From positions 124,001 through 188,000 of the forward strand of contig NZ_JAOWLB010000006.1 in the NCBI RefSeq assembly GCF_025751555.1: 64,000 nt of DNA, written 5' to 3'. A program made the translations under genes and the position numbers. Below the pieces are notes generated by a model that saw only the letters and a list, made by a program, of their open reading frames with translations, was not told the origin of the DNA and made no database searches. The stretch is from Ruegeria aquimaris (GTDB lineage Bacteria > Pseudomonadota > Alphaproteobacteria > Rhodobacterales > Rhodobacteraceae). Shown one piece after another: positions 3,362-51,427 of the stretch (within the stretch, counting starts at the first letter, position 1; every line of letters starts with the position of its first letter).

Positions 3362-3364
3362 GCC

Positions 3365-3835
3365 TCAGAGCTTGGACGAGATGATACCGGTGGCAAAGCC
3401 GCCCATGCGCAACTCGCCGAACAGCCGCTGATACTCGATCTTGGGGCAGCGGTTCTGAATCACGTCCACCCCACGTGCCTCGGCCATTGCTGTGGCTTCG
3501 GCATTCTCGACCCCGATCTGCATCCAGACGGTTTTGAGATGCGGAAAAACGTCCAGCGCCTCTTTCACGATCGGTGGAACCGCCTCGGACCGGCGGAAGA
3601 CGTCCAGCATGTCGACCGGTTCTTCGATCTCGCCCAGACTGCCCCGCACCGTTTCGCCAAACATGGTCGCCCCGGCATGCCCGGGATTGACCGGGATCAC
3701 CCGGTATCCCTTGAGCCCCAGATATCGCGCCACGTAATAACTCGGGCGGACCGGGTTCAACGAGACACCCACGACCGCTATGACCTTGGTCCTGGTCAAG
3801 ACCCGTTTCAGAAATTCGTCGGAATACTCATGCAT
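3365..3835 (-). CDS. CoA-binding (Rossmann) domain protein
   Basis: A single-domain CoA-binding protein of the YccU type, 156 residues. The N-terminus has the strand-turn-helix VIAVVGVSLNPVRPSYYVARYL with the nucleotide-loop GxS. KGYRVIPVNPGH is the second strand, and VWMQIGVENAEA followed by VIQNRCPKIEY is the family C-terminal signature. Such domains resemble the CoA-ligase module of succinyl-CoA synthetase but lack the catalytic part; substrate and role are unknown. It is convergent with the preceding lipoprotein gene, with 3 bases between stops. Confidence 0.9.
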   Translation of the reverse strand: MHEYSDEFLKRVLTRTKVIAVVGVSLNPVRPSYYVARYLGLKGYRVIPVNPGHAGATMFGETVRGSLGEIEEPVDMLDVFRRSEAVPPIVKEALDVFPHLKTVWMQIGVENAEATAMAEARGVDVIQNRCPKIEYQRLFGELRMGGFATGIISSKL

Positions 3836-3903
3836 GGCCGCAGATTAGTTTCCGGTGCGCGCACTGCAAGAGACATTCGCGGTCTCTCCTGGACAGGACG
3901 AAC

Positions 3904-3932
3904 AAAAAAACGCCCAGGCAAAGGCCTGGGCG
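3904..3932 (-). terminator. Strong rho-independent terminator (leftward)
   Basis: A 9-bp perfect stem (CGCCCAGGC / GCCTGGGCG) with a 4-base loop, followed in the leftward direction by seven T. It ends transcription coming from the YHS-domain gene, whose stop is about 150 bases upstream. The interval therefore forms an unusually long 3' UTR or a separate small RNA. It also insulates the CoA-binding gene to its left. Confidence 0.85.
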
Positions 3933-4083
3933 TTAGGTATGGAACGAGGGACAGTGAAATGACCCGCGGCAGTTCCGTTCCGCGGTCACTGTGACATTTA
4001 GGCATGCATGCGCGGAAAAAAAGAGGTAAGCTCCAACTTTGTGGTGACATGTCGATTTCCGGCAGAAATCCGCCATTCCGCAA

Positions 4084-4530
4084 CTATGGGAACAGAACCC
4101 CCGGCCAGTTCCTTTCGGCCAGCGCAATGTTCCCCGGAATGTCCTCCTGCCACAGGCGCGCCACCTCGGGCGAGTGCACAAGATAGAGCTTGTCCTCGAC
4201 GATTTGCCAGGTGTCAGGGTCCGTATCCGTGAGATACCCACGCGCCACAGCATAGGCGCAATAGCCGCCGAACTGAGGTGCAAAGGCGCGTGGGTTGGCT
4301 TCGAAAATTTCACGATTCTCGTGGCTTGAGAAATGCCAATAGGCCGCCTTCCACATCACTGCGATATCGGGTGAACCCCGTTTCGGTGCACCGTTCCGGA
4401 AGTACGCCACCGTATCGAACCCACGAATGGCGACCCCGTCCTGTGCAAAGAACACGGTCGGATCTGCACGAACAGCGGAACCCACAGCGACAGTTGCGAG
4501 GCCAGAGATGAAAAGGCGGCGGTTCAGCAA
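4084..4530 (-). CDS. YHS-domain protein with signal peptide
   Basis: A 148-residue exported protein. The N-terminus MLNRRLFISGLATVAVGSAVRA has a paired Arg followed by a hydrophobic core, like a short or Tat-like signal. The mature part matches YHS-domain proteins: GVAIRGFDTVAYF near residues 33-45, WHFSSHENREIFEANPRAFAPQFGGYCAYAVARG near 65-98. The Tyr-Cys-containing motif is characteristic of these metal- or haem-associated periplasmic proteins. The role is not established. It has its own terminator downstream. Confidence 0.88.
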   Translation of the reverse strand: MLNRRLFISGLATVAVGSAVRADPTVFFAQDGVAIRGFDTVAYFRNGAPKRGSPDIAVMWKAAYWHFSSHENREIFEANPRAFAPQFGGYCAYAVARGYLTDTDPDTWQIVEDKLYLVHSPEVARLWQEDIPGNIALAERNWPGVLFP

Positions 4531-4651
4531 TAGACTTGCTCCAATCCTCGGGAACCCGTTTCAGATCGGAACAGAATGCCCGTTCCAGCCGCTTTGGAAA
4601 AGATATCTGACGGATATGTGAATGAAACCTGCACCGCTCTGGCGCCTTTGA

Positions 4652-4936
4652 TCAATCAAAGAAGTCCTCGATAGCGTCGGATAGGTCATCGAACAGGCGA
4701 TGGGCCAAACCCTTTTTCTTCTTCTTTTTCTTCTGCTTCTTGTGAAACTCGGCGTCCGGTCGGAACACATCTTCGCGCATCGAAGGCGAAGCGGCGCGGG
4801 CAACCGGCGCCGCCGAAACCCGGACAGAGTGTTTGATCGGTGCCCCGCAGCCATCGCAGCGCAACCGTCCGGCTTCGCTCTGCCCCAACGCCATTCTGCT
4901 CCCGCAGTAGCAGCAGGTTACAATTTCAGCGTTCAC
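4652..4936 (-). CDS. Small zinc-ribbon protein
   Basis: A 94-residue protein with two CxxC pairs: CCYCGSRM at residues 8-15 and CDGCGAP at about 27-33, a zinc-ribbon knuckle. A run of nine or ten Lys near residues 66-76 is followed by an acidic helix ending in DFFD. The poly-Lys/acidic tail suggests a nucleic-acid or ribosome contact, but this is inference. It lies 18 bases downstream of rlmB in the same direction and probably shares its transcript, consistent with a role around rRNA. Confidence 0.8.
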   Translation of the reverse strand: MNAEIVTCCYCGSRMALGQSEAGRLRCDGCGAPIKHSVRVSAAPVARAASPSMREDVFRPDAEFHKKQKKKKKKKGLAHRLFDDLSDAIEDFFD

Positions 4937-4954
4937 GGATCTCTCCAGCGGCGT

Positions 4955-5728
4955 CTAGCGCTCTCTGGATGCATATAGGGCGATGGCGGCCGCATTCGAG
5001 ACGTTGAGAGAACCAAACCCGCCCGCTGCGTCGATCTTGACCAGCTTGTCGACGGTTTCCTTGGTCTTTTGCCGCAGCCCCGGCCCCTCGGCCCCAAGGA
5101 CAAGCGCAACGGCCCGATCGCGCCGCCCAACCAGCGCCGTCTCGATCGTTTCCTCGGCTTCGCCGTCGAGACCCAGCACGATGTACCCCATGCCCTGCAA
5201 TTCGGTGATTGCCTCGGACAGGTTGCGCACGCGCAGATAAGGCTGACGCTCCAGCGCGCCGCTGGCTGTTTTGGCCAGCGCGCCGGTTTCAGGCGCCGAA
5301 TGGTGCCTCGTCCCGATCACGGCACTGGCGCCCAGTACCTCGGCCGACCGCAGAATGGCACCAACATTGTGCGGATCGGTCACCCGGTCGAGCAGAATCA
5401 CGCGGGGGCATTCATGCCCGACGCAAACGTCCTCCAGCCGCCCCCAGTCCAATGGTTTGACTTCCAATGCCGCCCCCTGGTGAACCGAGCCCGGATCAAT
5501 CGGCGCGCTGAATTTCCGCGGGTCCACGATCTCCGGTTCGATCCCTGCGGTAGCGATTGCTTCGGCAAGCTTGTCCTTTGCGTTCAGCGTCACGATCAAG
5601 CGCAATTTCACCCGGTCAGGGTTCTCCAGAGCATCGCGAACAGCGTGCAACCCGAACAGCCAGACGGTTTCCGCCGCCGCTGCCTTGCGGGCCTGTTCCT
5701 TCTCGACAACCCATTTCGGTTTCTTCAT
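4955..5728 (-). CDS. rlmB: 23S rRNA 2'-O-methyltransferase, SpoU/TrmH family (RlmB type)
   Basis: A SPOUT methyltransferase, 257 residues. A basic N-terminal extension (about 20 residues) precedes the substrate-binding domain that starts LFGLHAVRDAL. The SPOUT knot shows the three SpoU motifs: LLDRVTDPHNVGAILRSAEVLGA (motif 1), LVLGAEGPGLR (motif 2) and LNVSNAAAIALY (motif 3). RlmB methylates G2251 in the 23S P-loop using SAM. Assignment to RlmB rather than another TrmH-family enzyme rests on overall organisation. It is divergent from tRNA-Tyr. Confidence 0.92.
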   Translation of the reverse strand: MKKPKWVVEKEQARKAAAAETVWLFGLHAVRDALENPDRVKLRLIVTLNAKDKLAEAIATAGIEPEIVDPRKFSAPIDPGSVHQGAALEVKPLDWGRLEDVCVGHECPRVILLDRVTDPHNVGAILRSAEVLGASAVIGTRHHSAPETGALAKTASGALERQPYLRVRNLSEAITELQGMGYIVLGLDGEAEETIETALVGRRDRAVALVLGAEGPGLRQKTKETVDKLVKIDAAGGFGSLNVSNAAAIALYASRER

Positions 5729-5843
5729 TTGTGCGCCCTCCGGGGCCTGCGAAAGTTTCCTGCGCCAAAGCGGTTTTTTCCTGTTGACGCTCCTTTGGCG
5801 CGCTTGTAATCACGCCTCCACGTCAGGTGCAACGCCTGACAGT

Positions 5844-5927
5844 GGGCGACAGGCCGCAAGGTGTGGCAGGGGACTGTAACTCCCTCGCGGAGACGCACGC
5901 CTGGTTCGATTCCAGGGTCGCCCACCA
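5844..5927 (+). tRNA. tRNA-Tyr (anticodon GTA)
   Basis: Folds as a class II tRNA. The acceptor stem is GGGCGAC/GTCGCCC with encoded discriminator A and CCA, and the D-stem is GCC/GGC. The anticodon stem GGGGA/TCCCT encloses loop CTGTAAC (anticodon GTA), a long variable arm follows, and the T arm is CCTGG-TTCGATT-CCAGG. The GTA anticodon plus long variable arm identify bacterial tRNA-Tyr. No integrase or duplicated 3' end was seen next to it. Confidence 0.97.
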
Positions 5928-6038
5928 TCTCTTTCCAGACAATTGAACGGAACGGATGGTGGATGGCAACCATCGTTCGGCGCACGCGTGCGGCCCGCAT
6001 GTGCAGGGATCGAAGTTGACACAACCAAGCCAGACGCG

Positions 6039-6062
6039 CCGGGACAGGGGTACCCGTCCCGG
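6039..6062. terminator. GC-rich hairpin between tRNA-Tyr and the DUF2478 gene
   Basis: A 7-bp stem (CCGGGAC / GTCCCGG) with a 10-base loop that is itself partly palindromic (GGGGTACCC). There is no T-run on either side. It lies 7 bases past the stop of the leftward DUF2478 gene and about 110 bases past tRNA-Tyr, so it could mark a convergent transcript end. Confidence 0.35.
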
Positions 6063-6068
6063 TATCAC

Positions 6069-6590
6069 TCAGGCAGCCTGGCTTCTTTCCGCCAAGACCC
6101 GACGCATCCATTGGACGAGCCTGTCGATTTCGGGTTCAAGCTTTTCCGCAGCACCTTCGGTAAAGTCGAGAAACTTTTCCTCGTTCAGACCGTTGACCCC
6201 CAGCAGAACCGGAATGTCTTGCGCCAGTGCTTCGGCGATCAGGGGACGAAAACCCCGGCCATCGGCCTCGTGCTTGCCGAACTTGTTGACGATCAGCAGA
6301 TCGGGTCCATTACCCAAGGCGCCCATGACCAGCCCCACCGCGCGCTCCAGCTCGCCCGGATTCAGACGGCATCCCCGCGCACCGGCGCCCAGCGATTGCG
6401 AGATCCGGATCACCTCGCCCGTCGGCATGACCCGCAGATCCATGTCGCAATGGGCATTGTCGGCGCATTCGGTATTGGTCTGCACCACACCGGCCAAACC
6501 TACGCCTTCGGCCTCCAACCGTTCGGCTACGGCGCTCAGCAGCCGGTCTGTAGCGCCGCGCGCCTGTGTCGTTACATAGGCCAGGTTCAT
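6069..6590 (-). CDS. DUF2478 protein (NTPase-like)
   Basis: A 173-residue cytoplasmic protein starting MNLAYVTTQARGATDRLL, the usual opening of DUF2478 proteins, followed by AGVVQTN and a Cys/His pair (TECADNAHCDMDLRVM), ISQSLGAGARGCRLNPG, and DLLIVNKFGKHEADGRGF. These proteins resemble a degenerate P-loop NTPase fold and often sit near molybdenum-transport genes, though none are in view here. The ATG at the right end is preferred over an in-frame TTG two codons earlier. Function unknown. Confidence 0.85.
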   Translation of the reverse strand: MNLAYVTTQARGATDRLLSAVAERLEAEGVGLAGVVQTNTECADNAHCDMDLRVMPTGEVIRISQSLGAGARGCRLNPGELERAVGLVMGALGNGPDLLIVNKFGKHEADGRGFRPLIAEALAQDIPVLLGVNGLNEEKFLDFTEGAAEKLEPEIDRLVQWMRRVLAERSQAA

Positions 6591-6653
6591 TCCCAACCAT
6601 CCTTTCTTCCATCATCAATCATCATCTAGCACGCCCTCCCCCTTTCGGCCACC

Positions 6654-7319
6654 TCAGGGCATCGGTGACACGCCGATGACCCCCGCGTGGCCAAGCAGAA
6701 GGGTGCCAAACAGCACACTGGCCAGCATCATATCGACCGGGCGCAACAGTTCGACGCCATGCCGCAGAGACAGAAGCCGCGTGTTCGCCGCAAGGCGGTG
6801 CCAGTCGCGGTCCATGTCCCGCTGCTTGCGACGGTCGATCAGCCGCATGCCCAGCACCGCGAAGCCCGCAAAAAGGCCGAACAGCACCACATGTGCCAGA
6901 TCTCCATTTGCCAACAGATGGGCCAACGACCAGAGCGCCAGCGCCAAGGGCAGCGGGTGGCGCGAAAACGCCAGAACGCTCGGCGCGGCCGGGTCGAACG
7001 GCCCTCGCCCCATTCCGCCGAAAGATAGCGGATTGCAGGCACGCATGCCCGCAACGGCAATAAGGCAGACAACCGGCATAACGATCATCGGAACCCAGCG
7101 CAGGATGGGCAAGGGCGGGATCACCTCGACATAGGGCGCCTCGCCCGCGGCCACGATCAGCCAATACAACACGGCAAGCGACAGCAGGGAATAGGCCACC
7201 AGATAGCCACGTAACCCCAGTCGCGCGACCAACCAGGGCCGGACAGGCGGCCGGACCGGGATGGCGTGGCTGAGCAGGAACACGGCCAAAGCCGCCGCAA
7301 ACGCACCCCATCCGCCCAT
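6654..7319 (-). CDS. NnrU-family membrane protein
   Basis: A 221-residue integral membrane protein with about six hydrophobic segments. Family features are the N-terminal SHAIPVRPPVRP, the GLRGYLVAYSLLSLAVLYWLI helix, and SFGGMGRGPFDPAAPSVLAFSRHPLPLALALWSLAHLLANGD near residues 100-140. The latter carries the conserved Arg-His-Pro common to NnrU and isoprenylcysteine-methyltransferase-like membrane proteins. NnrU is associated with nitrite/nitric-oxide respiration in denitrifiers, but many homologues lie outside such loci. No denitrification genes are in this window, so the specific role is open. Confidence 0.85.
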   Translation of the reverse strand: MGGWGAFAAALAVFLLSHAIPVRPPVRPWLVARLGLRGYLVAYSLLSLAVLYWLIVAAGEAPYVEVIPPLPILRWVPMIVMPVVCLIAVAGMRACNPLSFGGMGRGPFDPAAPSVLAFSRHPLPLALALWSLAHLLANGDLAHVVLFGLFAGFAVLGMRLIDRRKQRDMDRDWHRLAANTRLLSLRHGVELLRPVDMMLASVLFGTLLLGHAGVIGVSPMP

Positions 7320-7406
7320 CTCTTGCCTCCGTCACATTCCGGTTGACCCTAGATCGACCCTTGCGACCCGGCCTTGCGCAAAGTCAAGCCGGACCGCAAG
7401 ACCGGA

Positions 7407-9473
7407 TCAAAGGCCAAGCGCCTTGCGCCGCTCCTCGGCAAAGCCCTGCACCAGCCGGTCGGCAATCAGCGCCAGAATGGCCATCGCCGCCCCTGCCGAG
7501 ATGCCCAACCCCACATCCGCCTGTCCCAGCGCCAGATAGATCGACTGGCCCAGACCGGTCGTCCCGATCAGCGCCGCGATCACCAGCATCGAGAAGGCAT
7601 AGAGAATGGTCTGATTCAGCCCCAGCAGGATGGTCGGCGCGGCATAGGGGGCGCGCACATCGCGCAGGATCTGCCAGTCCGTCGCGCCGCTGGAGATGGC
7701 GGCCTCCATCATCTCTTCGGGCGTATCCACCAGACCGTGGCGGGTATAGCGGATCATCGGCACGATGGCATAGGCGCAGATCGCCAGAAAGGCCGAGAAC
7801 TCTCCGATCTGGAACAGCATCAGCACCGGGATCAGAAAGACGAAGAGCGGAATGGTTTGCAGCATGTCGCAGATCGGCCGCACAATACGCCAGACCGGTG
7901 CCCATATGGCACTGGCCACGCCAATCGCCCCGCCCACAACCGCACAGGCAAATACCGAGGCGCCACAAAGGTAGAGCGACAACAGCGCGCGGTCCCACAG
8001 GCCCGACAGCAGGATCGTGCAGAGCAAGACCACCACCAGGATCGCCAGCCGCCGACCGCCCGCCACATATCCCAGCGCCGCCGCCCCGGTCAGGACAAAG
8101 GGCCAAGGCAAGTTGGTCACTCCGGTCTCGATCATGCCAAAGGCGATCAGGACAACGAAGCCGCCTGTCACGTTGCCGCGCCACGCCAGCAAGAGGCCCA
8201 GCGCACCACCCAGACCAAAGACCAGCGCGCTCATCGCCGGGGTCCACATGAACCCCCAGGTAAACGGCAGAACGGCCTGATCCAGCCCGATCCTGAGCGG
8301 CAGCAGCACGTAATAGAGAGTGTTGTTCTTCAACGCCTCCAGCGCCATCCCGTTGGACTGGGTAAAGCGGGTCAGCCCGCGGTCCAGACTGTTCGCCACC
8401 CCGTCCAGCATCGCCACCTCGGACGCGCCCGGCAGGCTGGACCAGAACAGTACGGTGAAGACCACCGCAAAGGCCAGAACCGCCCAGACAACACGCAGGT
8501 CGTAGCGTTTGCGTTCGGTCGCCAGCACCGCGCTCATCCGGTCGATCACCACGGCAAAGATCACGATCACCATACCGGCCAGCAGCGACGGGCCAAATTG
8601 CGCCTTGCGCATGGTCAACAGGACCTCCCAGCCGATATCGTTGAACCCGCCGATGACGGCGGCGATGATCACCATGCTGAGCGCGGCCATCAGGCATTGA
8701 TTGAACCCGACCATGATCTGGCGCGAGGCCGAGGGGATTTCGACCTGAAACAGTTGCTGAAGCCGAGAGCCGCCGGACATGATCGCGGCTTCCTTGATCT
8801 CGGCCTCGACCCGCTCCAGCCCCAGCATCACGTTGCGCGCCATCGGCGGCGCGGCATAGATCGCCGAGGCGATCAGACCAACGACCGGGCCAAACCCGAA
8901 GAGCAGCAACAAAGGTGTGAGATAGGCGAATGTCGGCACCGTCTGCATGATGTCCAGTACCGCCTGCACCGCGCCTTTCACCCGCGGCACTTCGTTGGCA
9001 AGGATGCCGATACCGCCTCCGACAACCAGCGCCACAGGCACCGACACGGCGACCAGCGCCAGCGTGTTCATGCCCTCGTGCCAATACCCCGAGGCCAGCA
9101 CCAGACCCAGGCCAAAGAATCCGAGAGCAGCCATCGACAGCCCGCCAAGGTACCAGCCCAGCGCGGTGACAAGCCCGATCACCATCGGCCAGGGCGTGGC
9201 GTTCAGGGCGGTGTTCGCCCAGCCCATCGGATAGACCATGATGTCCGAGAACAACCGGGCCACCGGCTTGATCCAGCCCAAGAGCCAGGCCAGCGCCGCA
9301 CCCACCCAGTCGGTCATCGGCAGGACCCAGGTCTTGGGCCAGGCGCCAAGCCACGGCACGACCGGTTCCAGCGCCAGGCAGAGTGCGCCCACCAGCGCGG
9401 TGATCAGGGCGGCCTTTGCCCCCAATGTCAGTCGCGTTGCGTGCGGTGCCGCAACATCCGCAACCGCAGTCAT
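7407..9473 (-). CDS. Glycine betaine/proline-type ABC transporter, fused double permease
   Basis: A 688-residue inner-membrane protein containing two ProW-like permease domains in tandem. The first domain's EAA-type loop is around residues 220-250 (VEAEIKEAAIMSGGSRLQQLF). The second is around 590-620 (TPEEMMEAAISSGATDWQIL). A conserved MQTVPTFAYLTP / LQTIPLFVFLIP segment comes before each. Canonical ProW has one such domain and works as a homodimer, so here duplication and fusion give a pseudodimer. The stop codon of the ATPase gene overlaps its start by 4 bases. The substrate is probably a quaternary amine (glycine betaine, choline or a relative). Confidence 0.92.
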   Translation of the reverse strand: MTAVADVAAPHATRLTLGAKAALITALVGALCLALEPVVPWLGAWPKTWVLPMTDWVGAALAWLLGWIKPVARLFSDIMVYPMGWANTALNATPWPMVIGLVTALGWYLGGLSMAALGFFGLGLVLASGYWHEGMNTLALVAVSVPVALVVGGGIGILANEVPRVKGAVQAVLDIMQTVPTFAYLTPLLLLFGFGPVVGLIASAIYAAPPMARNVMLGLERVEAEIKEAAIMSGGSRLQQLFQVEIPSASRQIMVGFNQCLMAALSMVIIAAVIGGFNDIGWEVLLTMRKAQFGPSLLAGMVIVIFAVVIDRMSAVLATERKRYDLRVVWAVLAFAVVFTVLFWSSLPGASEVAMLDGVANSLDRGLTRFTQSNGMALEALKNNTLYYVLLPLRIGLDQAVLPFTWGFMWTPAMSALVFGLGGALGLLLAWRGNVTGGFVVLIAFGMIETGVTNLPWPFVLTGAAALGYVAGGRRLAILVVVLLCTILLSGLWDRALLSLYLCGASVFACAVVGGAIGVASAIWAPVWRIVRPICDMLQTIPLFVFLIPVLMLFQIGEFSAFLAICAYAIVPMIRYTRHGLVDTPEEMMEAAISSGATDWQILRDVRAPYAAPTILLGLNQTILYAFSMLVIAALIGTTGLGQSIYLALGQADVGLGISAGAAMAILALIADRLVQGFAEERRKALGL

Positions 9474-10522
9474 GCTTCGTCCACCTGCAAGGCGGCGGCA
9501 AGAGCCGAAGGATTGACCGTTCCGACAATCGCGCCGCCCGCATCCCGCACCGGTACCGGCTGGTAAAGCTCCATGCAGCGCGCCAGCGCCGCGTCGAGCG
9601 TCATGTTGGTGGTCAGTCCGGGATCGTCAGGACCACGCTCCCCATCGCCTGCCTGCATGACCGAGGCCACCCTTGCATGGCGGCCCTTGGCCACATCCTT
9701 GGAAAACTCGCGCACATAGTCATCGACCGGCTGCAACACGATTTCGGTCGGCGTGCCGATCTGAACGATCTTGCCGTCCCGCATGATGGCGATCCGGTCA
9801 GCCAGTTTCAGCGCCTCGGCAATATCGTGGGTGATAAAGACGATGGATTTCCTGAGCGTCGCCTGAATGCGCAGGAACTCATCCTGCAACTGCCGCCGGA
9901 TTAGCGGGTCGAGCGCGGAAAACGGCTCGTCCAGGAACCAGATGTCCGGGTTGACCGCCAGACTGCGGGCAATACCCACACGCTGACGCTGACCGCCTGA
10001 CAGCTGGCGCGGGAAGCTGTCCTCGCGCCCGTCGAGCCCGACCAGCGAGATCACCTCCTGCGCGCGGGCGCGGCGTTCCTTGCGCCCCACCCCCTGCACC
10101 TTGAGCGGATAGGCCACGTTTTCGGCCACCGTCATATGCGGGAACAGGCCGAAATGCTGGAACACCATGCCCAGCTTTCGCCGCCGCAACTCGGTGAGCT
10201 TCTGCTTGCTCGCGCCGATGACGTTCTCGCCGTCGATGCGGATCTCGCCACCAGTGCCCGGCAACAGTTGCGAGATACAGCGGATCAGCGTGGACTTGCC
10301 CGAACCGGACAGGCCCATGATCACAAACAGCTCGCCCTCGCGTACCTCGAAACTGGCGTCCTGCACCGCAGGGATATACCCCCGTGCGCGCAGATCGTCG
10401 GCCGCTGCATCAGCATTGCCCCCTGACCGGGCCAACGCCTCGGTCAGGGCCTTGTCCGCGCTCGGGCCAAAAACCTGCCAGAGACTCTGGCAGGCAATGG
10501 CCGGCGTATCCGACGTACTCAC
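9470..10522 (-). CDS. Glycine betaine/proline-type ABC transporter ATPase (ProV-like)
   Basis: A 350-residue ATPase of the OpuA/ProV class. It has Walker A GLSGSGKST near residue 72, Q-loop VFQHFGLFPHMTV, signature LSGGQRQRVGIARSLA, Walker B DIWFLDEPFSALDP, and the switch His in VFITHDIAEAL. About 60 extra N-terminal residues resemble the ProV N-terminal leader (LTEALARSGGNADAAADDL). The C-terminal 80 residues look like one degenerate CBS domain, whereas typical ProV has a CBS pair. It lies 9 bases after the binding-protein stop and overlaps the permease start, forming one operon. Confidence 0.94.
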   Translation of the reverse strand: MSTSDTPAIACQSLWQVFGPSADKALTEALARSGGNADAAADDLRARGYIPAVQDASFEVREGELFVIMGLSGSGKSTLIRCISQLLPGTGGEIRIDGENVIGASKQKLTELRRRKLGMVFQHFGLFPHMTVAENVAYPLKVQGVGRKERRARAQEVISLVGLDGREDSFPRQLSGGQRQRVGIARSLAVNPDIWFLDEPFSALDPLIRRQLQDEFLRIQATLRKSIVFITHDIAEALKLADRIAIMRDGKIVQIGTPTEIVLQPVDDYVREFSKDVAKGRHARVASVMQAGDGERGPDDPGLTTNMTLDAALARCMELYQPVPVRDAGGAIVGTVNPSALAAALQVDEA

Positions 10523-25226: not shown

Positions 25227-26771
25227 ATGAACCAGCCTACCGAAGTGACCCTCCCGGATTGGGGGCCTTTTGGCCGCCCGCTGTTCAACGACCCAAGCGC
25301 CCGCGCCCTGTCGCGAATCGGGGTGGTCGATGTGGGCTCCAACTCGGTCCGGATGGTGGTGTTCGATGGCGCCGCCCGGTCGCCCGCTTATTTCTACAAC
25401 GAGAAGATCATGTGTGCGCTCGGCGCGGGCCTGTCTGAATCCGGCAGGCTGAACCCCGAGGGCCGGGTGCGGGCGCTGGCGGCTCTGCGCCGGTTCCAGC
25501 ATCTGGCGGGCGATCTGGACCTGCCGCCGCTGGCCGCCGTGGCCACTGCCGCGGTACGCGAGGCCGAGGACGGGCGCGCGTTCTGCGACGAGGTGCTGCG
25601 CGAGACGGGACTGAAGATCCAGGTGATCGACGGCGACGAGGAGGCACGGCTGTCGGCGCAGGGGGTTCTGTTGGGCTGGCCCGGCGCCTATGGGCTGATC
25701 TGCGATATCGGCGGGTCATCGATGGAACTGGCCGAGATCGCCAACAACCAGGTGGGGCGGCGGGTGACCTCGCCGCTGGGACCGCTGAAGCTGCGCGACA
25801 TCAAGGGCGGCCGCAAGGGGCGCAAGGCGCATATCAAGCAGGTCATGGGTGAGCTGAAGGCGCAGCTGGGGCCGCAGCGCGACCGGCTGTTCCTGGTCGG
25901 CGGCAGCTGGCGGGCGATCGCGCGGATCGACATGCTGCGGCGCAACTATCCGCTGAAGGTGCTGCACGAATATCGCATGACCGTGCGCGACGTGCATGAG
26001 ACGGTGAAGTTCATCGAGAACTCGGACCTGGAGAAGCTGCGGAGCAAGACCGGGCTGTCCTCGTCCCGGATATCGCTGGTGCCCTATGCGATCGACGTGC
26101 TGACCCGCCTGATCCGCGATTTCAAGCCCAAGGATATCGCCATTTCCTCGTATGGTATCCGCGAGGGGCTGCTGTTCGAGCAGATGCCGCAGCGGCTGCG
26201 TGACCGCGATCCGCTGATCGAGGCGAGCTATTTCGCCGAGGCCAAGGATGCCCGCCTGCCCGGGTTCGGCAAGCAGCTGTTCGAGTTTGTGATGCCGCTG
26301 TTCAAATCCGCCCCGCCCGCGCAGGTGCGGCTGATCAAGGCGGCCTGCCTGCTGCATGACGTGAGCTGGCGGGCGCATCCCGATTACCGCGCCGAGATCT
26401 GTTTCGACAACGTCACCCGCGCCAATCTGGGCGGGTTGAAGCACTCGGAACGGGTGTTCATCGGGCTGGCGCTGCAACACCGCTACAAGAACAAGCGCGA
26501 AGGCAACCGGTTCGACCCGATCTATGCGCTCTTGGACGAGCGGAGCCAGACCCAGGCCGAGACCCTGGGCAAGGCGATGCGGTTCGGCGCGATGCTGTGG
26601 CTGAAACGCGACGCGCGGATGGGGCGGCTGACCTGGTTCCCCAAGAAACGCCGGCTGGAGCTGCACCTGCCGAAAGAGGCCGCAGCACTGTTTGGCGAAG
26701 TGGCCGAGGCGCGGTTCCAGTCGCTGGTCTCGGCGCTGGGGGCGACCTCGGAGGTGTTCATCGAGGAGTGA
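25227..26771 (+). CDS. ppx: Exopolyphosphatase (Ppx/GppA family)
   Basis: A 514-residue ASKHA-fold phosphatase. The phosphate-1 loop is GVVDVGSNSVRMVVFD near residue 31, and AVATAAVREAEDG and IDGDEEARLSAQGV follow. The phosphate-2 loop is ICDIGGSSMELAEI near 160, with SYGIREGLLFEQMP near 310. The C-terminal HD-like part contains CLLHDVSWRAHPDYR near 400. It degrades polyphosphate and may act on pppGpp. It starts 49 bases after hda and looks co-transcribed; no polyphosphate kinase gene lies in between. An earlier in-frame start inside the hda end is rejected because homology begins at the chosen ATG. Confidence 0.93.
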   Translation: MNQPTEVTLPDWGPFGRPLFNDPSARALSRIGVVDVGSNSVRMVVFDGAARSPAYFYNEKIMCALGAGLSESGRLNPEGRVRALAALRRFQHLAGDLDLPPLAAVATAAVREAEDGRAFCDEVLRETGLKIQVIDGDEEARLSAQGVLLGWPGAYGLICDIGGSSMELAEIANNQVGRRVTSPLGPLKLRDIKGGRKGRKAHIKQVMGELKAQLGPQRDRLFLVGGSWRAIARIDMLRRNYPLKVLHEYRMTVRDVHETVKFIENSDLEKLRSKTGLSSSRISLVPYAIDVLTRLIRDFKPKDIAISSYGIREGLLFEQMPQRLRDRDPLIEASYFAEAKDARLPGFGKQLFEFVMPLFKSAPPAQVRLIKAACLLHDVSWRAHPDYRAEICFDNVTRANLGGLKHSERVFIGLALQHRYKNKREGNRFDPIYALLDERSQTQAETLGKAMRFGAMLWLKRDARMGRLTWFPKKRRLELHLPKEAAALFGEVAEARFQSLVSALGATSEVFIEE

Positions 26772-26822
26772 GGGCGGCGCGTCGCATGCACCCGAACGCC
26801 TGGCATTGTGAACCCACCGGCC

Positions 26823-26848
26823 AGATTGTGAAAAAGCGGACCTTGCAC
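26823..26848. repeat. Short degenerate copy of the R1/R2 repeat
   Basis: The segment ending AGCGGACCTTGCACC matches 15 consecutive bases of repeat R1, preceded by a GATTG shared with both longer copies. It sits 51 bases after the ppx stop, at the left edge of the mosaic region. It may be the remnant of a further copy. Confidence 0.5.
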
Positions 26849-26958
26849 CACCATCCGGCAAACCGCTGCTTGGAACCCGAGCTTATACCTCTCCGGCGTA
26901 TGAACGGTCGTGCTCCCTTGCGCGCATTTGGAAGATATTGTGACAATTGGAGTTCTGT

Positions 26959-27654
26959 GTGGTAACATCGGCGGCGACGACTGTTCTCTTAAGCACGAAG
27001 CTGCACACAAGATTGGTGGTCTACCCTTTGGAAAACAAAATCGCGGGTGCCCGTTGGCCCGAAACGCTGATCTGGTCGGCACCGGCCGTGATCGTTGGCG
27101 CATGCGTTTTCGTGATTGCCACCGTGATTGGTATCGTGGCCGGTTTGCGCGGCATTGAGCTGGAACTGCTTGTCCGGGACCCTGCCGCATCTTACAAATA
27201 TCCACCGTATGTAGGCTTTTTCTCGCATATCGGCATAGTTGTCATGGTCTCTACCGCGTCGCTGACAGCCTTTGCCGCCTGGATGTCAATCACCCTGGGG
27301 CGCGGTAACACCAGAGTGCTTGCGCATGTATCGGTCTTGTCGGCGGTTCTGGCAATCGACGATATCTTCATGATCCACGAGCAAGCGTCCCGCCTGGGCG
27401 AAGTCGCGATATTCGCGGTCTACGGTCTGCTGGCGCTTGCGATCTGGAGGTACCTGCACCGCAGTTCCGACCGCTACGACCTGCGCGGGCTTGCTGCGGC
27501 CATCGCCTTGCTCGGCTTTTCGGTCTTTGTCGACGTGTTCAGGCTCCACGGCCCAATTGCCTATTGGCTTGAAGACTTTTCGAAACTGTCGGGCTTCGCC
27601 GCCTGGCTGACATTCTGGGCCGGTTACGCACAACACACGCTGAACGAGGCCTGA
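26959..27654 (+). CDS. Membrane protein of unknown function
   Basis: A 231-residue protein with six or more hydrophobic segments. There is no ATG near the start. GTG is preferred because TTGGAG lies 6 bases before it; an in-frame TTG four codons upstream is the alternative. The motif LAIDDIFMIHEQAS in the middle, with charged residues between two helices, is the most distinctive element; I do not recognise a characterised family. It stands alone between ppx and repeat R1, in a segment of lower GC than its neighbours, and may have been acquired. Confidence 0.65.
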   Translation: MVTSAATTVLLSTKLHTRLVVYPLENKIAGARWPETLIWSAPAVIVGACVFVIATVIGIVAGLRGIELELLVRDPAASYKYPPYVGFFSHIGIVVMVSTASLTAFAAWMSITLGRGNTRVLAHVSVLSAVLAIDDIFMIHEQASRLGEVAIFAVYGLLALAIWRYLHRSSDRYDLRGLAAAIALLGFSVFVDVFRLHGPIAYWLEDFSKLSGFAAWLTFWAGYAQHTLNEA

Positions 27655-27879
27655 CCGGCCGGTTCACCCGTGCCTGTTTGTTGCGCCGTCATGCGTCACA
27701 TCAGATGACCGACGTGATAGGCCTTGGACCTATATCGCGGGTTTGCATAAGAACCGCTTCTGTAGGTGCGGAGGTAAGACCACGACGTCGGGGTTGTCTG
27801 CTGGATGGTCGTTGACATCAGGATGCGCCAGCGCCCGCTTTGACGATGCCACCTGAATTTCCGTCCTCCTGGGGTGTCG

Positions 27880-28018
27880 GTGCCTCGGGCGTGGGTGGTA
27901 TAGTCGGATCAGAATGACGCCGTCTCTATGCCAAGGCGCCCAGGACAGTGAACTGCGTGGCCTGATTGCAATACAGCGGACCTTGCACCGACTTGCCGCG
28001 AAAGTCGGCTTCGCGCCC
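27880..28018. repeat. Direct repeat R1 (139 bp)
   Basis: Matches 28889-29027 at 136 of 139 positions without gaps, in the same orientation. It contains the hairpin CCGACTT-GCCGCGA-AAGTCGG. It lies in the roughly 450-base non-coding gap between two membrane-protein genes; the rest of that gap shows no gene or clear structure. Leftward reading frames exist in both copies but differ at the ends and look non-coding. Confidence 0.92.
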
Positions 28019-28105
28019 GAAGCGGTCCTCCAAATGCCGGTTCTGAAAAGATATTCTCCAACCCACAAGACGCCTGCACCAAAGTCTGCAAACTAGACGC
28101 GGAGG

Positions 28106-28636
28106 TCAAATAGAGTTCCAAGGCAAAGTGTGGAAGACAAAGCGCCATAGATAATAAACAACTGCTGATGAGACGAGGATAGTTGCTGAGATAATCAGAA
28201 TCACCATCCCTAGCTTAGATTGATCTCGTCTTTTCCAAGGCATTGGCGCTTCAAAGACAGTTGCTGACCAAAACACCATTGCTATTGGGAAAAACAAGAT
28301 CGCATATACGTGCAGAGTGATCCAAGGAAGCATTTCCATCCACATTCGGGGGACGTGTGCGAAAGACAGCGGGACTGCCGTCATGATCGAACAAGCCAAA
28401 CCCCAGATCAGGGACGCAATGAGCTGTACGAAAGGCGTGTAACGAACAAGGATTTTGTTTATATTATTATATAAAATCAATGTTATAAGTAGTGATGGCA
28501 TCATTGTGGCGATAATTGCGACCAACCAAAACCCATCAGGAAGGAAGTTGTTGCGAGCGGACCAGAAACCGACAATGAACTCCACGCTGAATCCGATCAG
28601 TCCACCAATCAGTCCAGAGATCAGTAGCTTCCCCAT
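28106..28636 (-). CDS. AT-rich membrane protein of unknown function
   Basis: A 176-residue protein with five hydrophobic segments (about residues 5-25, 35-55, 65-90, 95-120 and 140-165). It shows no recognised domain. The ATG used is preceded by AAGGAG, though 14 bases away; a TTG start 11 codons upstream is possible but less likely. Base composition is markedly more AT-rich than the surrounding genes, and codon use includes many A/T-ending codons, which points to horizontal transfer. It is bracketed by repeats R1 and R2. Function unknown. Confidence 0.65.
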   Translation of the reverse strand: MGKLLISGLIGGLIGFSVEFIVGFWSARNNFLPDGFWLVAIIATMMPSLLITLILYNNINKILVRYTPFVQLIASLIWGLACSIMTAVPLSFAHVPRMWMEMLPWITLHVYAILFFPIAMVFWSATVFEAPMPWKRRDQSKLGMVILIISATILVSSAVVYYLWRFVFHTLPWNSI

Positions 28637-28765
28637 TTTCGGCCCCGCTTCTCCTTCATTCGCACACAAGTCGAAAACCTATCACGTCGCACCTGAGTCA
28701 ATATTGATTGGTATCAAGTCAACAAATTCCCAAATTGTCTGCAACGTGCTCCTCAGCAAGCGCCA

Positions 28766-29027
28766 GGATCGTCCGCAGAACAGTGAATGAGGCCCGGATG
28801 TGCAAGCGCCCACTTTGGCGTTTACTGTTCTAGATATCCGTCATCCCCGGCGGGGTCGGCTCAAGAGGCTCAACGGGGTGCTCCGGCTGTGCCTCGGGCG
28901 TGGGTGGTATAGTCGGATCAGAATGACGCCGTCTCTATGCCAAGGCGCCCAGGACAGTGAACTGCGTGGCCGGATTGCAATACAGCGGACATTGCACCGG
29001 CTTGCCGCGAAAGTCGGCTTCGCGCCC
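28766..29027. repeat. Chimeric direct repeat R2
   Basis: The left part (about 28766-28900) matches R3 at 30111-30243. The right part (28889-29027) is the second copy of R1. The left part includes a copy of the last 22 codons and stop of the leftward gene at 30174-30563, with one codon changed (PETQ to PEAQ). R2 therefore joins the two repeat types and fills most of the gap between the AT-rich membrane protein and the methyltransferase gene. Confidence 0.9.
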
Positions 29028-29063
29028 AAACCTCTATTCTTCTACAGCGCGGCTAATGTCGCC

Positions 29064-29999
29064 TTAAGGTGTGCGGGAAGCAGCCACGATTTGCTTCATG
29101 TGGCGCATGTCGGTGCCACAACATCCCCCCAAAACCTTAATATGAGGGAACCTTCGTCTGATCTCTGACAACTGCACACCCAACTCGGTTGGATTGCCGT
29201 CGTCCAGTTCTTCGGCTTCGTCAAGTTCAGCATGGCTACAGCGTGAGGCATTGGCAATGATACCTCTTACGCGCTGCATCCAGGGTGCGTCTTCTAGGAC
29301 TTCAGAGAAATGCTCAGGATGCGCGCAGTTGATCATGAAGTAGCCTGCATAGCTGTCAGTCGCAGCATCGACCTCCGATATCGCTTCCTCTAGTGACTCT
29401 CCGGTTGGCAACCGCCCGTCAGTTTCCACCGTGAAAGAGATGACCACCGGAAGCCCAAACCGGCGGGCCGCCCTGACCATGCCAATCGCTTCGGATGGAT
29501 ATGCCAAAGTGTATCCGCTGATCACATCCACATCTGTTTCTGCCAATGCCGAAATTTGCTCCGAGTGATAGCGTTCTGCCTCATCCGAGTGCATTTGCGC
29601 TTCCGGGGCGTAGGCATCTTCGCGTGGTCCAATATTTGCACTGATGACGGTCGGAGCATGGTCGCTTTCCGACCGTACAGTCGCCATCATGGCGATAGCA
29701 TCTTGATTAAGCTTCTTGAGTTCGCTGGAAGCGTACCCAAGCGCAGCCCCGCGATCTCGGTTTGCAACCCATGTTGGGCTTTCTAGAATGACACCGACAC
29801 CTGTTTCTTTGCCTAGAGCGATCAGGTCTTTCAGATATCCCTTGAGAAGCTCTCGACCCTCCGCGGTTTTCATAAGCGGGTATGAGGCAAAACCCGGCAA
29901 ATCTACGCCGTGATTGAATATCAAGTCGGTTTCCATCCCAGTGTAGGCCAAGAACAGGTCGGCATTGTCGGGAGGAAAACAGTCTCGATAAATTGACAT
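29064..29999 (-). CDS. Homocysteine S-methyltransferase family protein
   Basis: A barrel-type homocysteine S-methyltransferase of the MmuM/HMT family, about 311 residues. The N-terminus has LFLAYTGMETDLIFNHGVDLPGF. The middle has VISANIGPREDAY and SGYTLAYPSEA, and VVISFTVETDGRLPTGE and the zinc-site region YFMINCAHPEHF follow. The C-terminus has the paired zinc Cys in GGCCGTD. It would transfer a methyl group from a donor such as S-methylmethionine or a betaine to homocysteine. The start is uncertain: an in-frame ATG 17 codons earlier exists, neither has a ribosome site, and homology begins at the one used. The gene sits between repeats R2 and R3. Confidence 0.85.
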   Translation of the reverse strand: MSIYRDCFPPDNADLFLAYTGMETDLIFNHGVDLPGFASYPLMKTAEGRELLKGYLKDLIALGKETGVGVILESPTWVANRDRGAALGYASSELKKLNQDAIAMMATVRSESDHAPTVISANIGPREDAYAPEAQMHSDEAERYHSEQISALAETDVDVISGYTLAYPSEAIGMVRAARRFGLPVVISFTVETDGRLPTGESLEEAISEVDAATDSYAGYFMINCAHPEHFSEVLEDAPWMQRVRGIIANASRCSHAELDEAEELDDGNPTELGVQLSEIRRRFPHIKVLGGCCGTDMRHMKQIVAASRTP

Positions 30000-30110
30000 C
30001 GCCGTGGACCAAGCGCCTGAATTGTCCTCAGACCATAACAACAGATGCATAGTTTGTCACTGATGCACCTTGAACGAAGCAGTCATTGGCGCAGCCGCAG
30101 CGAAAGCACA

Positions 30111-30243
30111 CTTCGTCCGCGGAACAGTGAATGAGGCCCGTATGTGCGAGCGTCTGCTTTGGCGTTTTCCGGGTCAAATATCCGTCATCCCCGGCGGGGT
30201 CGGCTCAAGAGGCTCAACGGGGTGCTCCGGCTGTGTCTCGGGC
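30111..30243. repeat. Direct repeat R3, overlapping the 3' end of the adjacent gene
   Basis: Matches the left part of R2 in the same orientation, 1.34 kb apart. Similarity covers the last 22 codons of the leftward gene (one mismatch in about 66 bases) and about 70 bases beyond its stop, where divergence is higher. The pair brackets the homocysteine methyltransferase gene. Confidence 0.88.
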
Positions 30244-30563
30244 GGGGCTGGTTTGCGGCGGATGAGGATGTCGCCGTTGGGCAGCATCTCGGGCATCTCG
30301 TAGACGGACCAGTCCTCGACCCGGTCGGCGAGGTCGGCGATGGCCGGGCCCATCTGTTCGAGGAAACTCAGGACCGAGGGGCCGACGGTGCCGGCCATGT
30401 CGCGCAGGTCCCGTAGCGCCGGTTCCATTTCCTGTTGCAGTCCCTTGAGGAACAGTTCCGCGCCGCGTTCCATCAGCGAGCGGCCTTCGTCCGTCTCCTG
30501 CGCGGTGGCGGAGAGCGGGGCGGTCAGACCCAGGGTCAGGGCGAGGGCAAGGAGCGGTCTCAT
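30174..30563 (-). CDS. Small secreted protein of unknown function
   Basis: A 129-residue protein with a signal peptide (MRPLLALALTLGLTAPLSATAQ, cleavage near residue 21). The mature part is helical and acidic (RSLMERGAELFLKGLQQEMEPALRDLRDMAGTVGPSVLSFLEQMGPAIADLADRVEDW). A Pro-rich tail, PAPPETQPEHPVEPLEPTPPG, follows. Relatives in Rhodobacteraceae are often mislabelled as AAA ATPases; no nucleotide-binding motif is present. Its 3' end is duplicated at 28838-28905. The ATG used fits the signal peptide; upstream open codons are not used. Confidence 0.82.
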   Translation of the reverse strand: MRPLLALALTLGLTAPLSATAQETDEGRSLMERGAELFLKGLQQEMEPALRDLRDMAGTVGPSVLSFLEQMGPAIADLADRVEDWSVYEMPEMLPNGDILIRRKPAPPETQPEHPVEPLEPTPPGMTDI

Positions 30564-30601
30564 GGGCCCAAGATAGGCATTCGTGCCCGCGATTTCAAAG
30601 C

Positions 30602-34078: not shown

Positions 34079-34125
34079 GGCGCAACTCAATCACCGCGCG
34101 CGCGCTTTGCCAAGACCGGTCGGGG

Positions 34126-34340
34126 ATCATCCGGCGGGCATCGCCCGGGCTTTCCCCCGGCCACAGGCCCTCCCGCCCGGCGCCAACCATGCCAAATGCA
34201 TGGCCGCGCCCGTTGGGCATGGCATCGCGCTGGCGCGCGATGCCGCAGCCGGCAGAGCCGGCTGCCCGGCCCAAGGCCGCAAGGGGAGCTGCCCGCAGGG
34301 CAGGCACCCGCGGGCGCGGGAGCGCGCCCTGCCCCGATAA
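34126..34340. repeat. Tandem repeat copy A (non-coding part)
   Basis: About 215 bases that recur at an exact offset of 420 bases with roughly four mismatches. The sequence is GC-rich with several internal dyads (CCGGCAGAGCCGG; GGGCGCGG...GCGCGCCC). It lies downstream of the mcm remnant, exactly as copy B lies downstream of the real mcm stop. No gene is seen in it, although open frames run through because of its composition. Confidence 0.92.
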
Positions 34341-34342
34341 CC

Positions 34343-34476
34343 TGAGCGGTGCACCAGTTTCAGGATATCGCGCGCCGCCTTGGGGTCGTTGGTCCCGGGG
34401 CCAAAGGTGGCCTTGACGCCCTTGTCATAGAGGAAGTGGCAATCCTCCTTCAGGATCACGCCGCACAGATTAGGAC
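34343..34476 (-). pseudogene. Remnant of a methylmalonyl-CoA mutase-like C-terminus
   Basis: The leftward translation contains [37 protein letters not shown], matching the last 40 residues of the intact mutase ([39 protein letters not shown]). The stop has been changed (TGA to TCA), so the frame reads on. There is no start or upstream domain. Nucleotide identity to the intact gene is about 80% here, far lower than in the adjoining non-coding repeat. It is a decayed fragment of a duplicate or paralogue. Confidence 0.88.
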
Positions 34477-34545
34477 AAAGCTTGTCGCTCCGGCTGCTTT
34501 GACCACCGCGCTGGCGCTTTGCCACGGCCCGTCCGACCACCTGCA

Positions 34546-34760
34546 ATCATCCGGCGGGCATCGCCCGGGCTTTCCCCCGGCCATAGGCCCTCCCGCCCGG
34601 CGCCAACCATGCCAAAGGCATGGCCGCGCCCGTTGGGCATGGCATCGCGCTGGCGCGCGATGCCGCAGCCGGCAGAGCCGGCTGCCCGGCCCAAGGCCGC
34701 CAGGGGGGCTGCCCGCAGGGCAGGCACCCGCGGGCGCGGGAGCGCGCCCTGCCCCGATAG
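34546..34760. repeat. Tandem repeat copy B (non-coding part)
   Basis: Second copy of the 215-base non-coding repeat, directly following the mcm stop. It may supply hairpins ending the mcm transcript: CCGGCAGAGCCGG and the CGCGGGAGCGCG dyad are present in both copies. The similarity also extends faintly to the right of each copy's far end (a shared GCGCTTTGCCA about 30 bases upstream). Confidence 0.9.
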
Positions 34761-34762
34761 CC

Positions 34763-36880
<2,118 letters not shown>

Positions 36881-49717: not shown

Positions 49718-51115
49718 ATGGCCACCCAGAAACTCTATGCCGGCGCCAAGCTGCGCGAGATCCGCAACCGCCTGTCGCTGACGCAAAAGGATTTCGCCGC
49801 CAAGCTGGGCGTGTCGCTGCCCTATCTGAACCAGATGGAGAACAACAACCGCCCGGTCTCGACCTCGGTGGTGCTGGCGCTGGCGCAGGAATTCGGGCTG
49901 GACGTGACCGAACTGAGCACCGGCGACAGCGAGCGGCTGGTCAGCGACATGCGCGAGGCGCTGGCGGACCCGATCTTTGCCGACGCGATGCCCCCTCTGG
50001 CCGATCTGCGCCTGACCGCGTCAAACGCACCGGCGCTGGCGCGCGCCTTTATCGAGCTGCACCGCACCTATCGCCAGACCCACGAACGGCTCGCCTCGCT
50101 GGACGAGGCGCTGGGGCGCGAGGATGCCCGCATCCAGGCCAGCCCCTGGGAGGAAGTGCGCGACTTCTTCCACTATTGCGACAACTATATCGACGCGGTC
50201 GATCACGCGGCAGAGCGGTTCGCGGCCCGGGCCCAGGCCGACGGGGTGCGTGGCGCGGCGCTGGCCGCACTGGCCGATCGCGGCATCACGGTCGAGCTGG
50301 CCGATATCGAGGCGCTGCGCCAATATGACCCCGCAACACGCCTGCTGCGGCTATCGACCCGCAGCGCGCCGCCGACCCAGGTGTTTCAACTGCTGTTGCA
50401 GGTGGCGCTGCTCAGCCAGAACTCGCTGCTGGAGGCAACGCTCGATTTCGCCCGTTTCCACAGCGAAGAGGCGCGCGCCATCGCCAAGATCGGGCTGGCC
50501 AATTACTTCGCCGGTGCGGCGCAGATGCCCTATGGCATCTTCCTGGAGGCCGCCCAACAGACCCGCCACGATCTGGAGCGGCTCAGCACCCGCTTCGGGG
50601 CCTCGATCGAGCAGGTGGCACACCGTCTCTCGACCCTGCAACGACCGGGCGCCAAGGGCATTCCGTTTTTCTTCGTCCGGGTCGATCAGGCAGGCACCAT
50701 CACCAAGCGCCACTCGGCCACGCGGCTGCAATTCGCCCGCTTCGGCGGCGCCTGCCCGCTCTGGAACGTGCATCGCGCCTTTGAAACACCGGGGCATTTC
50801 CTGCGGCAACTGGCGGAAACGCCTGATGGAGTCCGCTATATATCGCTGGCGCGCGACGTCTCGAAAACGGGGGGGTCCTTCGGCGCGCCGGTGCGGCGCT
50901 ACGCGATCGGGCTGGGCTGCGAGGTGCGCCATGCCGACCAACTGGTCTATGCCGATAATCTCGATGTCAGCAATGCCAGCGCCTACGAGCCGATCGGCAT
51001 TTCCTGCCGCATCTGCGAGCGCAAGACCTGCCACCAACGCTCGGTGCCGCCGCTGGAGCGGCGCCTGAGCATCGACAGTGACCATCGCGGCACCCTTCCT
51101 TACGAGGTCAACTGA
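49718..51115 (+). CDS. pccR: PccR-like short-chain fatty acyl-CoA regulator (ScfR family)
   Basis: A 465-residue regulator. The N-terminal XRE-type HTH KLREIRNRLSLTQKDFAAKLGVSLPYLNQMENNNRPVS spans about residues 8-45. A helical middle domain follows. A C-terminal ScfR domain has VYLLF-like ARFHSEEARAIAKIGLANYFAGAAQMPYGIF, FFFVRVDQAGTITKRHSATRLQFARFGGACPLWNVHRAFETPG (about 320-365) and a Cys cluster GISCRICERKTCHQRSVPP near the end. In R. sphaeroides PccR senses short acyl-CoA and activates pcc/mcm genes. Close linkage to pccB and matching octamers support this call. Confidence 0.88.
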   Translation: MATQKLYAGAKLREIRNRLSLTQKDFAAKLGVSLPYLNQMENNNRPVSTSVVLALAQEFGLDVTELSTGDSERLVSDMREALADPIFADAMPPLADLRLTASNAPALARAFIELHRTYRQTHERLASLDEALGREDARIQASPWEEVRDFFHYCDNYIDAVDHAAERFAARAQADGVRGAALAALADRGITVELADIEALRQYDPATRLLRLSTRSAPPTQVFQLLLQVALLSQNSLLEATLDFARFHSEEARAIAKIGLANYFAGAAQMPYGIFLEAAQQTRHDLERLSTRFGASIEQVAHRLSTLQRPGAKGIPFFFVRVDQAGTITKRHSATRLQFARFGGACPLWNVHRAFETPGHFLRQLAETPDGVRYISLARDVSKTGGSFGAPVRRYAIGLGCEVRHADQLVYADNLDVSNASAYEPIGISCRICERKTCHQRSVPPLERRLSIDSDHRGTLPYEVN

Positions 51116-51187
51116 TCTTCATTTCGCTGAAAATACTCCGGGGGAGTCGCTGCCAGGCGACGGGGGCAGCGCCCCCGCCCCTTTTGC

Positions 51188-51427
51188 TCAGGCCTTGGAC
51201 AGGATGCCCCAGATCTCATCCTTCAGCGCCGCGCGCTTTTTGCGCAACTCGACCTCGGCCAGTTCCTCCATCGGTTCCACGTTGGTCTCGGCCCGGTGTA
51301 CAGCCCGGTTGATCTCGTGATACTCGTCTGCCAGTTTGGAAAAATGCGCATCCGTCTGCTTGAGCTGGCTCATCAGATCGACCTTTTCGGGAAATTCCTC
51401 GGCCAGTTCATGCGGGGTATGGGACAT
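51188..51427 (-). CDS. YdcH-family (DUF465) small protein
   Basis: A 79-residue all-helical protein with the DUF465 core: LAEEFPEKVDLMSQLKQTDAHFSKLADEYHEINRAVHRAETNVEPMEELAEVELRKKRAALKDEIWGIL. It forms a helical hairpin with heptads typical of a coiled coil. These small proteins are widespread in proteobacteria and their role is unknown. It stands alone between pccR and betA with an AAAGGAG ribosome site. Confidence 0.92.
   Translation of the reverse strand: MSHTPHELAEEFPEKVDLMSQLKQTDAHFSKLADEYHEINRAVHRAETNVEPMEELAEVELRKKRAALKDEIWGILSKA

Follow-up and report, generated by a model that had tools for sequence, protein, structure and literature searches.

A single-gene array between ppx and a conserved neighbour in Ruegeria aquimaris, and its possible descent from a repeat-bounded cassette family of the Rhodobacteraceae

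Discrete gene modules without a recombinase of their own, moved in trans, are described for the dif (pdif) modules of Acinetobacter plasmids. The dif sites are about 28 bp long, with arms for XerC and XerD, and their direction alternates. For hotspots free of mobile elements, homologous recombination at the core flanks is the standing explanation (PMC5635113). Here we analysed 64,000 nt of Ruegeria aquimaris (assembly GCF_025751555.1, contig NZ_JAOWLB010000006.1, positions 124,001 to 188,000; hereafter the window), in which an array of three gene modules lies between ppx and the conserved gene 30174. An earlier note on this DNA had described three unrelated genes, one per interval between related repeats R0 to R3, and had proposed homologous recombination between repeats or an undescribed small mobile unit as the origin. 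We conclude with high confidence that the R. aquimaris locus is a filled hotspot with copied flanks, and we lean towards reading the array as a decayed member of a cassette system with exact junctions. The sites in question resemble dif modules in bounding gene modules that lack their own recombinase, and differ from dif in being about 115 bp long with neighbours on one strand.

The array runs ppx–B0–c1–A1/B1–c2–A2/B2–c3–A3–gene 30174, with one gene module per interval (Table 1), as the earlier note had it. Alignment showed that B is a copy of the ppx-side sequence and A a copy of the 30174-side sequence, the latter comprising about 60 nt of non-coding DNA followed by about 100 nt from the 3' end of gene 30174. 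R1 (27880-28021) and R2 (28889-29030) were identical at 138 of 142 positions, which confirms the long match first counted as 136 of 139, and identity just outside the match was random (15/60 upstream, 9/60 downstream). The R2/R3 match, put earlier at about 130 bp, reached 89% over 140 nt (28769-28908 against 30113-30252) or, alternatively, 86% over 165 nt with one gap. R2 is indeed a fusion of both repeat types: 28830-28888 agreed with R3 at 56 of 59 positions, and 28889-28932, part of the R1-like tract, agreed at only 20 of 44. The switch from R3-like to R1-like sequence, at about 28889, falls within the stretch copied from the 3' end of gene 30174. The joint between A and B also falls inside copied codons of this gene, and R1 and R2 have the same joint. 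R0, previously taken for a remnant, was a degenerate copy (63% over 104 nt against R2, E 1.8e-5), and R1 has on its left a diverged A half, at about 27796-27880, that aligns with A2 and R3 and had been overlooked. Strong matches to R1–R3 in their own genome occurred in three places, all at ppx–30174 (the remainder had E >= 0.24), and this search ruled out, at high identity, a multi-copy element of the genome.

The third gene had been called a homocysteine methyltransferase, and its product matched the Pfam family S-methyl_trans (E 7.1e-32); the c1 and c2 products had no Pfam family at E <= 0.1. The GC contents of c1, c2 and c3 were 0.58, 0.46 and 0.53, compared with 0.67-0.68 in three flanking genes. 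None of the three cargo open reading frames (ORFs) tested was recognised as an integrase or transposase, in agreement with the earlier observation. Rfam gave no match to 26500-30600 at E <= 1, and the R1–R2 stretch had no match in plasmid records.

The ppx-to-30174 interval varied among five Ruegeria genomes from about 0.1 kb in R. marina to 2.2 kb in R. pomeroyi SZCCDBG043, 3.4 kb in R. aquimaris, 8.1 kb in R. pomeroyi DSS-3 and 12.6 kb in PrR005, and its content differed in all five. Among 43 named ppx loci that were fetched, 29 had a gap of 9-165 bp, two had 2.2 and 4.0 kb, and 12 were unmeasured, with no adjacent 30174 homologue matched; PrR005 is among these 12 because its insert outruns the fetched flank. 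The empty state, which the earlier note had suggested looking for in relatives, is thus the usual one among the measured loci. An interval of about 4 kb was also seen outside Ruegeria, in the Rhodobacteraceae metagenome-assembled genome (MAG) UBA3069 (L054). The DSS-3 hotspot (L027, about 1500-9700) holds about 8 kb of other cargo, with transporter-like genes by eye, and a second repeat copy there lies beside B, pointing the other way.

Profile searches linked B with a degenerate family of intergenic repeats of about 115 bp, ending GGGCCG (variants GAGCCC and GTCCGC). Profile model R2, which is distinct from the window repeat R2, was built from 13 copies of this dispersed repeat. At E <= 0.1 it matched all five Ruegeria genomes, with 26 matches in DSS-3, and at E <= 1e-3 it matched 50 of 80 Rhodobacteraceae genomes (49 of 79 sampled genera). 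A class-wide sample yielded matches in 4 of 76 genomes, namely both Rhodobacteraceae and 2 of 74 other Alphaproteobacteria, the last two borderline at E about 3e-4. A plasmid search with the family model returned 14 records, all with Rhodobacteraceae genus names, and no listed gene lay under a match (the gene table was incomplete). In DSS-3, a 72-nt block was near-identical at four places (twice at 1.80 Mb, at 3.87 Mb and on the second replicon), beside different genes and in repeats otherwise much less alike; pieces of 26-59 nt of it occurred in 24 of 295 family genomes. Model R2 had replaced a profile model R1, whose matches outside the hotspot were mostly weak and some of them coding (L116, L108); R0 scored in that model too, having belonged to its building set.

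Copies of the dispersed repeat stand head to tail with one to few genes between them. Directions were counted over 186 positions, 41 in Ruegeria and 145 among the matches listed for Rhodobacteraceae. Among these matches, neighbours 0.5-5 kb apart were on the same strand in 29 cases and on opposite strands in one; at 0.5-10 kb the counts were 39 and 5, and beyond 100 kb they were 17 and 16. With an improved model, 12 regions selected for clusters gave 36 same-strand and no opposite neighbours below 6 kb, and 40 further stretches gave 16 and one. Heuristic gene calls put no gene in 3 of those 36 intervals, one gene in 11, two in 9, three in 6 and more than three in 7. The cargo between copies includes an nSTAND3 ATPase, two YaeQ copies, a BLUF sensor, a multicopper oxidase and a PfkB-type kinase; in genome G074 the nSTAND3 ATPase is the sole gene between two repeats (L255:5696-7984) and adjoins two 95%-identical YaeQ modules. 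A DDE transposase gene was noticed in one inter-repeat interval of the same genome.

Several unrelated sequences join exactly at the repeat end. Of 80 distinct copies, 68 had the exact GGGCCG end, each base being 95-99% conserved with conservation near background beyond it; these copies had to reach the model end, which somewhat favours conservation there. Flanks were compared with cut-offs of 40 nt and 80%, and the 47 rows that passed were sorted by hand, with self-comparisons removed. Results showed that seven families sharing the right side start at most 11 nt from the repeat end, and one further site joins one of the families with a 24-nt shift. All six families of at least 75 nt in this first data set started at the repeat end. 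In nine right-sharing pairs from the seven families, identity was 0.70-1.00 at +1 to +30 (background 0.28), and on the other side of the junction it was 0.17-0.67 at -30 to -7 (background mean 0.44, 5-95% range 0.29-0.62) and 0.30-0.77 at -60 to -31 (background 0.41, 0.17-0.73). The YaeQ pair was the most alike on the left (0.67 and 0.70). BLAST runs through several junctions because the repeats resemble each other. The YaeQ module of G074 was 99% identical over 705 nt, from GGGCCG to GGGCCG, and a 5.9-kb alignment of PrR005 with R. marina began at the first G of GGGCCG. A prediction was fixed before 40 more stretches were fetched, which provided 59 further copies, 49 of them with the exact GGGCCG; their scoring used whole flanks, unlike the first comparison. 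Three new right-sharing families of at least 75 nt appeared, one starting at GGGCCG (100% over 83 nt), one at GAGCCC (99.5% over 438 nt) and one being a tRNA-Met gene. Ten new left-sharing rows ended at the junction, mostly with the repeat's own length (75-118 nt), and were not counted as recombination.

Membership of the window's repeats was tested with an independent model built solely from loci without hotspot sequence (locus L223 holds a hotspot copy). This model found B of PrR005 at E 6e-14 and B of DSS-3 at E 5e-5, and a reversed control gave no match. B1 and B2 of the window were 90% identical to B of PrR005 over 86-87 nt. The R1/R2 identity stops 3 nt past GCGCCC (28018, 29027) and the A2/A3 identity starts at TCGTCCGC (28769, 30113); c2 and c3 therefore lie between ends of the same kind. 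B is probably a decayed member of a repeat that occurs across the Rhodobacteraceae and forms the end of a module, and the non-coding part of A is probably another.

Several results weigh against this reading of the array. The independent model scored the window's own repeats at chance level, both when iterated (B2 E 0.07, B1 E 0.59) and from the seeds only (E 0.77 and 0.16); this is the weakest link of the reading, and family membership therefore rests on the 90% identity to B of PrR005 at the same place. One strand of the 64 kb holds 45 GTCYGC and 74 GCGCCC, so the end motifs of c2 and c3 are a matter of consistency, not proof. Neither the A–B joint nor the switch at 28889 falls at a repeat-end motif, and the SZCCDBG043 insert (L026) had no recognised repeat. 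In the wider family, eight short matches (40-73 nt) lay deeper in the flanks, away from the repeat end. Strictly, one of the three new families agreed with the prediction, and both that are not tRNA fit it only with the motif widened after the fact. Seven new left-sharing rows stopped 23-35 nt before the repeat end; one of them, a 1.5-kb match, breaks by eye at GTCCGC, with which the 115-bp unit begins, and the others stop in a variable stretch. Finally, no recombinase for module exchange was identified (serine recombinases were not searched) and no movement was observed, so the mobile unit is something we infer.

For the array as a decayed member of such a system, the following course may be proposed. 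A site-specific recombinase supplied from elsewhere would exchange modules at the repeat end, much as integron cassettes are exchanged at attC, and the window's modules would have entered at B by this route. A and B, with roughly 100 nt of gene 30174 at their joint, may have been brought together in a single event, either end joining or a tandem duplication. The chimeric R2 and the third interval could then be products of unequal homologous recombination among the A copies; in a simple version, alleles c1-c2 and c1-c3 would have crossed unequally between A copies to give three modules with a chimeric middle repeat. Of the two origins considered earlier, homologous recombination between repeats holds in part, with the exchange visible in R2. 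The small mobile unit gains from head-to-tail repeats, exact junctions, varied cargo and a ppx interval that is empty in most relatives measured. Repeats unique to this place, with no other cargo anywhere, had been named as evidence against the earlier reading; close copies of R1–R3 do occur nowhere else in their own genome, but other Ruegeria carry other cargo here and degenerate relatives bracket genes elsewhere.

Other accounts were weighed against the same evidence. We regard as rather unlikely an ordinary hotspot without mobile elements, in which homologous recombination in the core flanks replaces the interval, tandem duplication of the filled interval adds slots whose cargo is swapped later, and the repeats are copied flanks. 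A and B do copy the two flanks with one shared joint, and R2 is a homologous recombinant. Hotspots are known that carry no mobility genes and have recombining flanks (PMC5635113), and this locus is like them in its conserved flanks, its variable or empty interval in relatives and the lack of a recognised mobility gene in the window's cargo. It differs from them in that the ppx interval contains copied flank ends and a dispersed repeat with exact junctions. This account does not predict breaks at a single base between repeats that are no more alike than background, or the rows in one direction that a dispersed repeat forms across genera, and core-flank homologous recombination explains R2, not the one-base breaks between unlike repeats. 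A small dispersed element resembling a miniature inverted-repeat transposable element (MITE), about 115 bp long with fixed ends and inserted beside genes, would make the modules accidental; what many copies have in common is limited to their own 75-118 nt, ending at GGGCCG, as expected of a discrete element, and yet we judge this improbable. Diverged elements would have had to insert again and again at one and the same base to give the families that agree on the right and have unlike repeats on the left (YaeQ, the blocks of 438 and 83 nt, and the 72-nt block found at four places in DSS-3), and head-to-tail order would be left unexplained.

One-ended, rolling-circle transposition of the IS91 or ISCR type, with the repeat as the fixed end that moves neighbouring DNA, could give a one-base boundary from its single sharply fixed end, and an IS91-family element with a tyrosine recombinase does lie in one DSS-3 cluster. 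However, this 2759-bp block (it holds a transposase of the IS91 family and a split frame for a tyrosine recombinase) is 100% identical at L224:9240-11998 and L276:7617-10375, one of which is within a repeat row, and it ends at L224:11998, about 40 nt before the repeat start. No such transposase was recognised in the window's cargo. The right side is shared by many sequences whose repeats are unlike, and right-sharing families are not expected from one fixed end; we give this account very little credence. The same scant credence goes to an integron remnant, a cluster of attC sites without integrase (CALIN). The topology is alike, with sites in direct order, one to few genes between them, a sequence switch exactly at the site end in the wider family (more weakly so in the new data) and a recombinase possibly encoded elsewhere. 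The Rhodobacteraceae sites differ in being conserved in sequence without a conserved fold, with a GGGCCG-like end. RNAalifold found no pairs for 13 or for 81 dereplicated sites on either strand (mean single-site z -0.22), which ruled out an attC-like or RNA fold. By heuristic calls in the 12 cluster regions, 34 genes have the direction of the repeat and 55 the opposite one. The integron integrase TIGR02249 was above cut-off in none of 8 tested genomes, where only weaker tyrosine-recombinase matches occurred, and in none of 14 control genomes.

Table 1 Features of the ppx–30174 array, in window coordinates
Feature	Position	Strand	Description
ppx (exopolyphosphatase), conserved left flank	25227..26771	+	Ppx-GppA E 9e-39, Ppx_C E 1.3e-18; same place in 5/5 Ruegeria genomes
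B0 (= R0), degenerate left-flank repeat	26797..26904	+	Possible end GGAACCC 26872-26878
Module c1	26879..27795	+	ORF 26947-27654 (+), 235 aa, no Pfam family; module limits inferred
A1 (left half of R1)	27796..27936	+	Diverged, shortened copy of the gene 30174 3' side; begins GTCTGC; aligned with A2, A3 and PrR005
B1 (right half of R1)	27937..28018	+	Copies the sequence that directly follows ppx; 90% identical over 87 nt to the PrR005 sequence at that place; last bases GCGCCC
Module c2	28019..28770	-	ORF 28106-28669 (-), 187 aa, no Pfam family; between GCGCCC (28013-28018) and GTCCGC (28771-28776)
A2 (left half of R2)	28769..28936	+	Starts TCGTCCGC; contains about 100 nt of copied gene 30174 3' end; resembles R3 to 28888, then R1
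A–B joint	28933..28945	+	Last base of the match between A2 and A3 at 28932; match to B of relatives begins at 28937-28945
B2 (right half of R2)	28946..29027	+	Ends GCGCCC
Module c3	29028..30114	-	ORF 29064-30050 (-), 328 aa, homocysteine S-methyltransferase family; between GCGCCC (29022-29027) and GTCCGC (30115-30120)
A3 (= R3)	30113..30277	+	Starts TCGTCCGC; non-coding part and 3' end of gene 30174
Gene 30174, conserved right flank	30174..30563	-	129 aa; homologues in 190/248 Rhodobacteraceae family genomes

Other repeats were met in the same searches. Local direct repeats that were tRNA genes (L136, L156, L166, L287/L312) were set aside, and Rfam on five array regions returned tRNA only. Direct repeats in a cluster with a Hint domain and invertase remnants (L155) were set aside as well; there, at L155:14885-17929 in DSS-3, nested direct repeats surround small AT-rich genes beside the Hint-like protein and the invertase remnants, a different kind of modular locus. 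R. aquimaris has a second, shorter dispersed intergenic repeat of 60-90 nt, up to 93% identical and in both orientations (window 51056-51247, L138:19183-19377, L140:1-282, L147:3230-3496). A close direct repeat (89% over 381 nt; window 34092-34464 against 34504-34884) lies at the end of a methylmalonyl-CoA-mutase-like gene.

Tentatively, and with less confidence than we attach to the array itself, we suggest that the Rhodobacteraceae may have a cassette kind of their own, with modules of tens of bases to several kb, a double-stranded site defined by sequence (about 20 to 115 bp, with an end of roughly AANGGCNGCTTTGGGCCG and variants) and exchange at that end by a recombinase encoded elsewhere; the ppx array would be a decayed example. 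We found no description of such a repeat or cassette system in Rhodobacteraceae in the accessible parts of the literature searched, a search that left subscription papers and preprints outside and does not show absence from print. Roseobacters are abundant marine bacteria, and to our knowledge the pile-up of single genes in their islands is poorly explained. A repeat present in 49 of 79 sampled genera and marking exact joints between genes would serve as a search key for island genes, and it raises the question of which enzyme, if any, cuts at GGGCCG.

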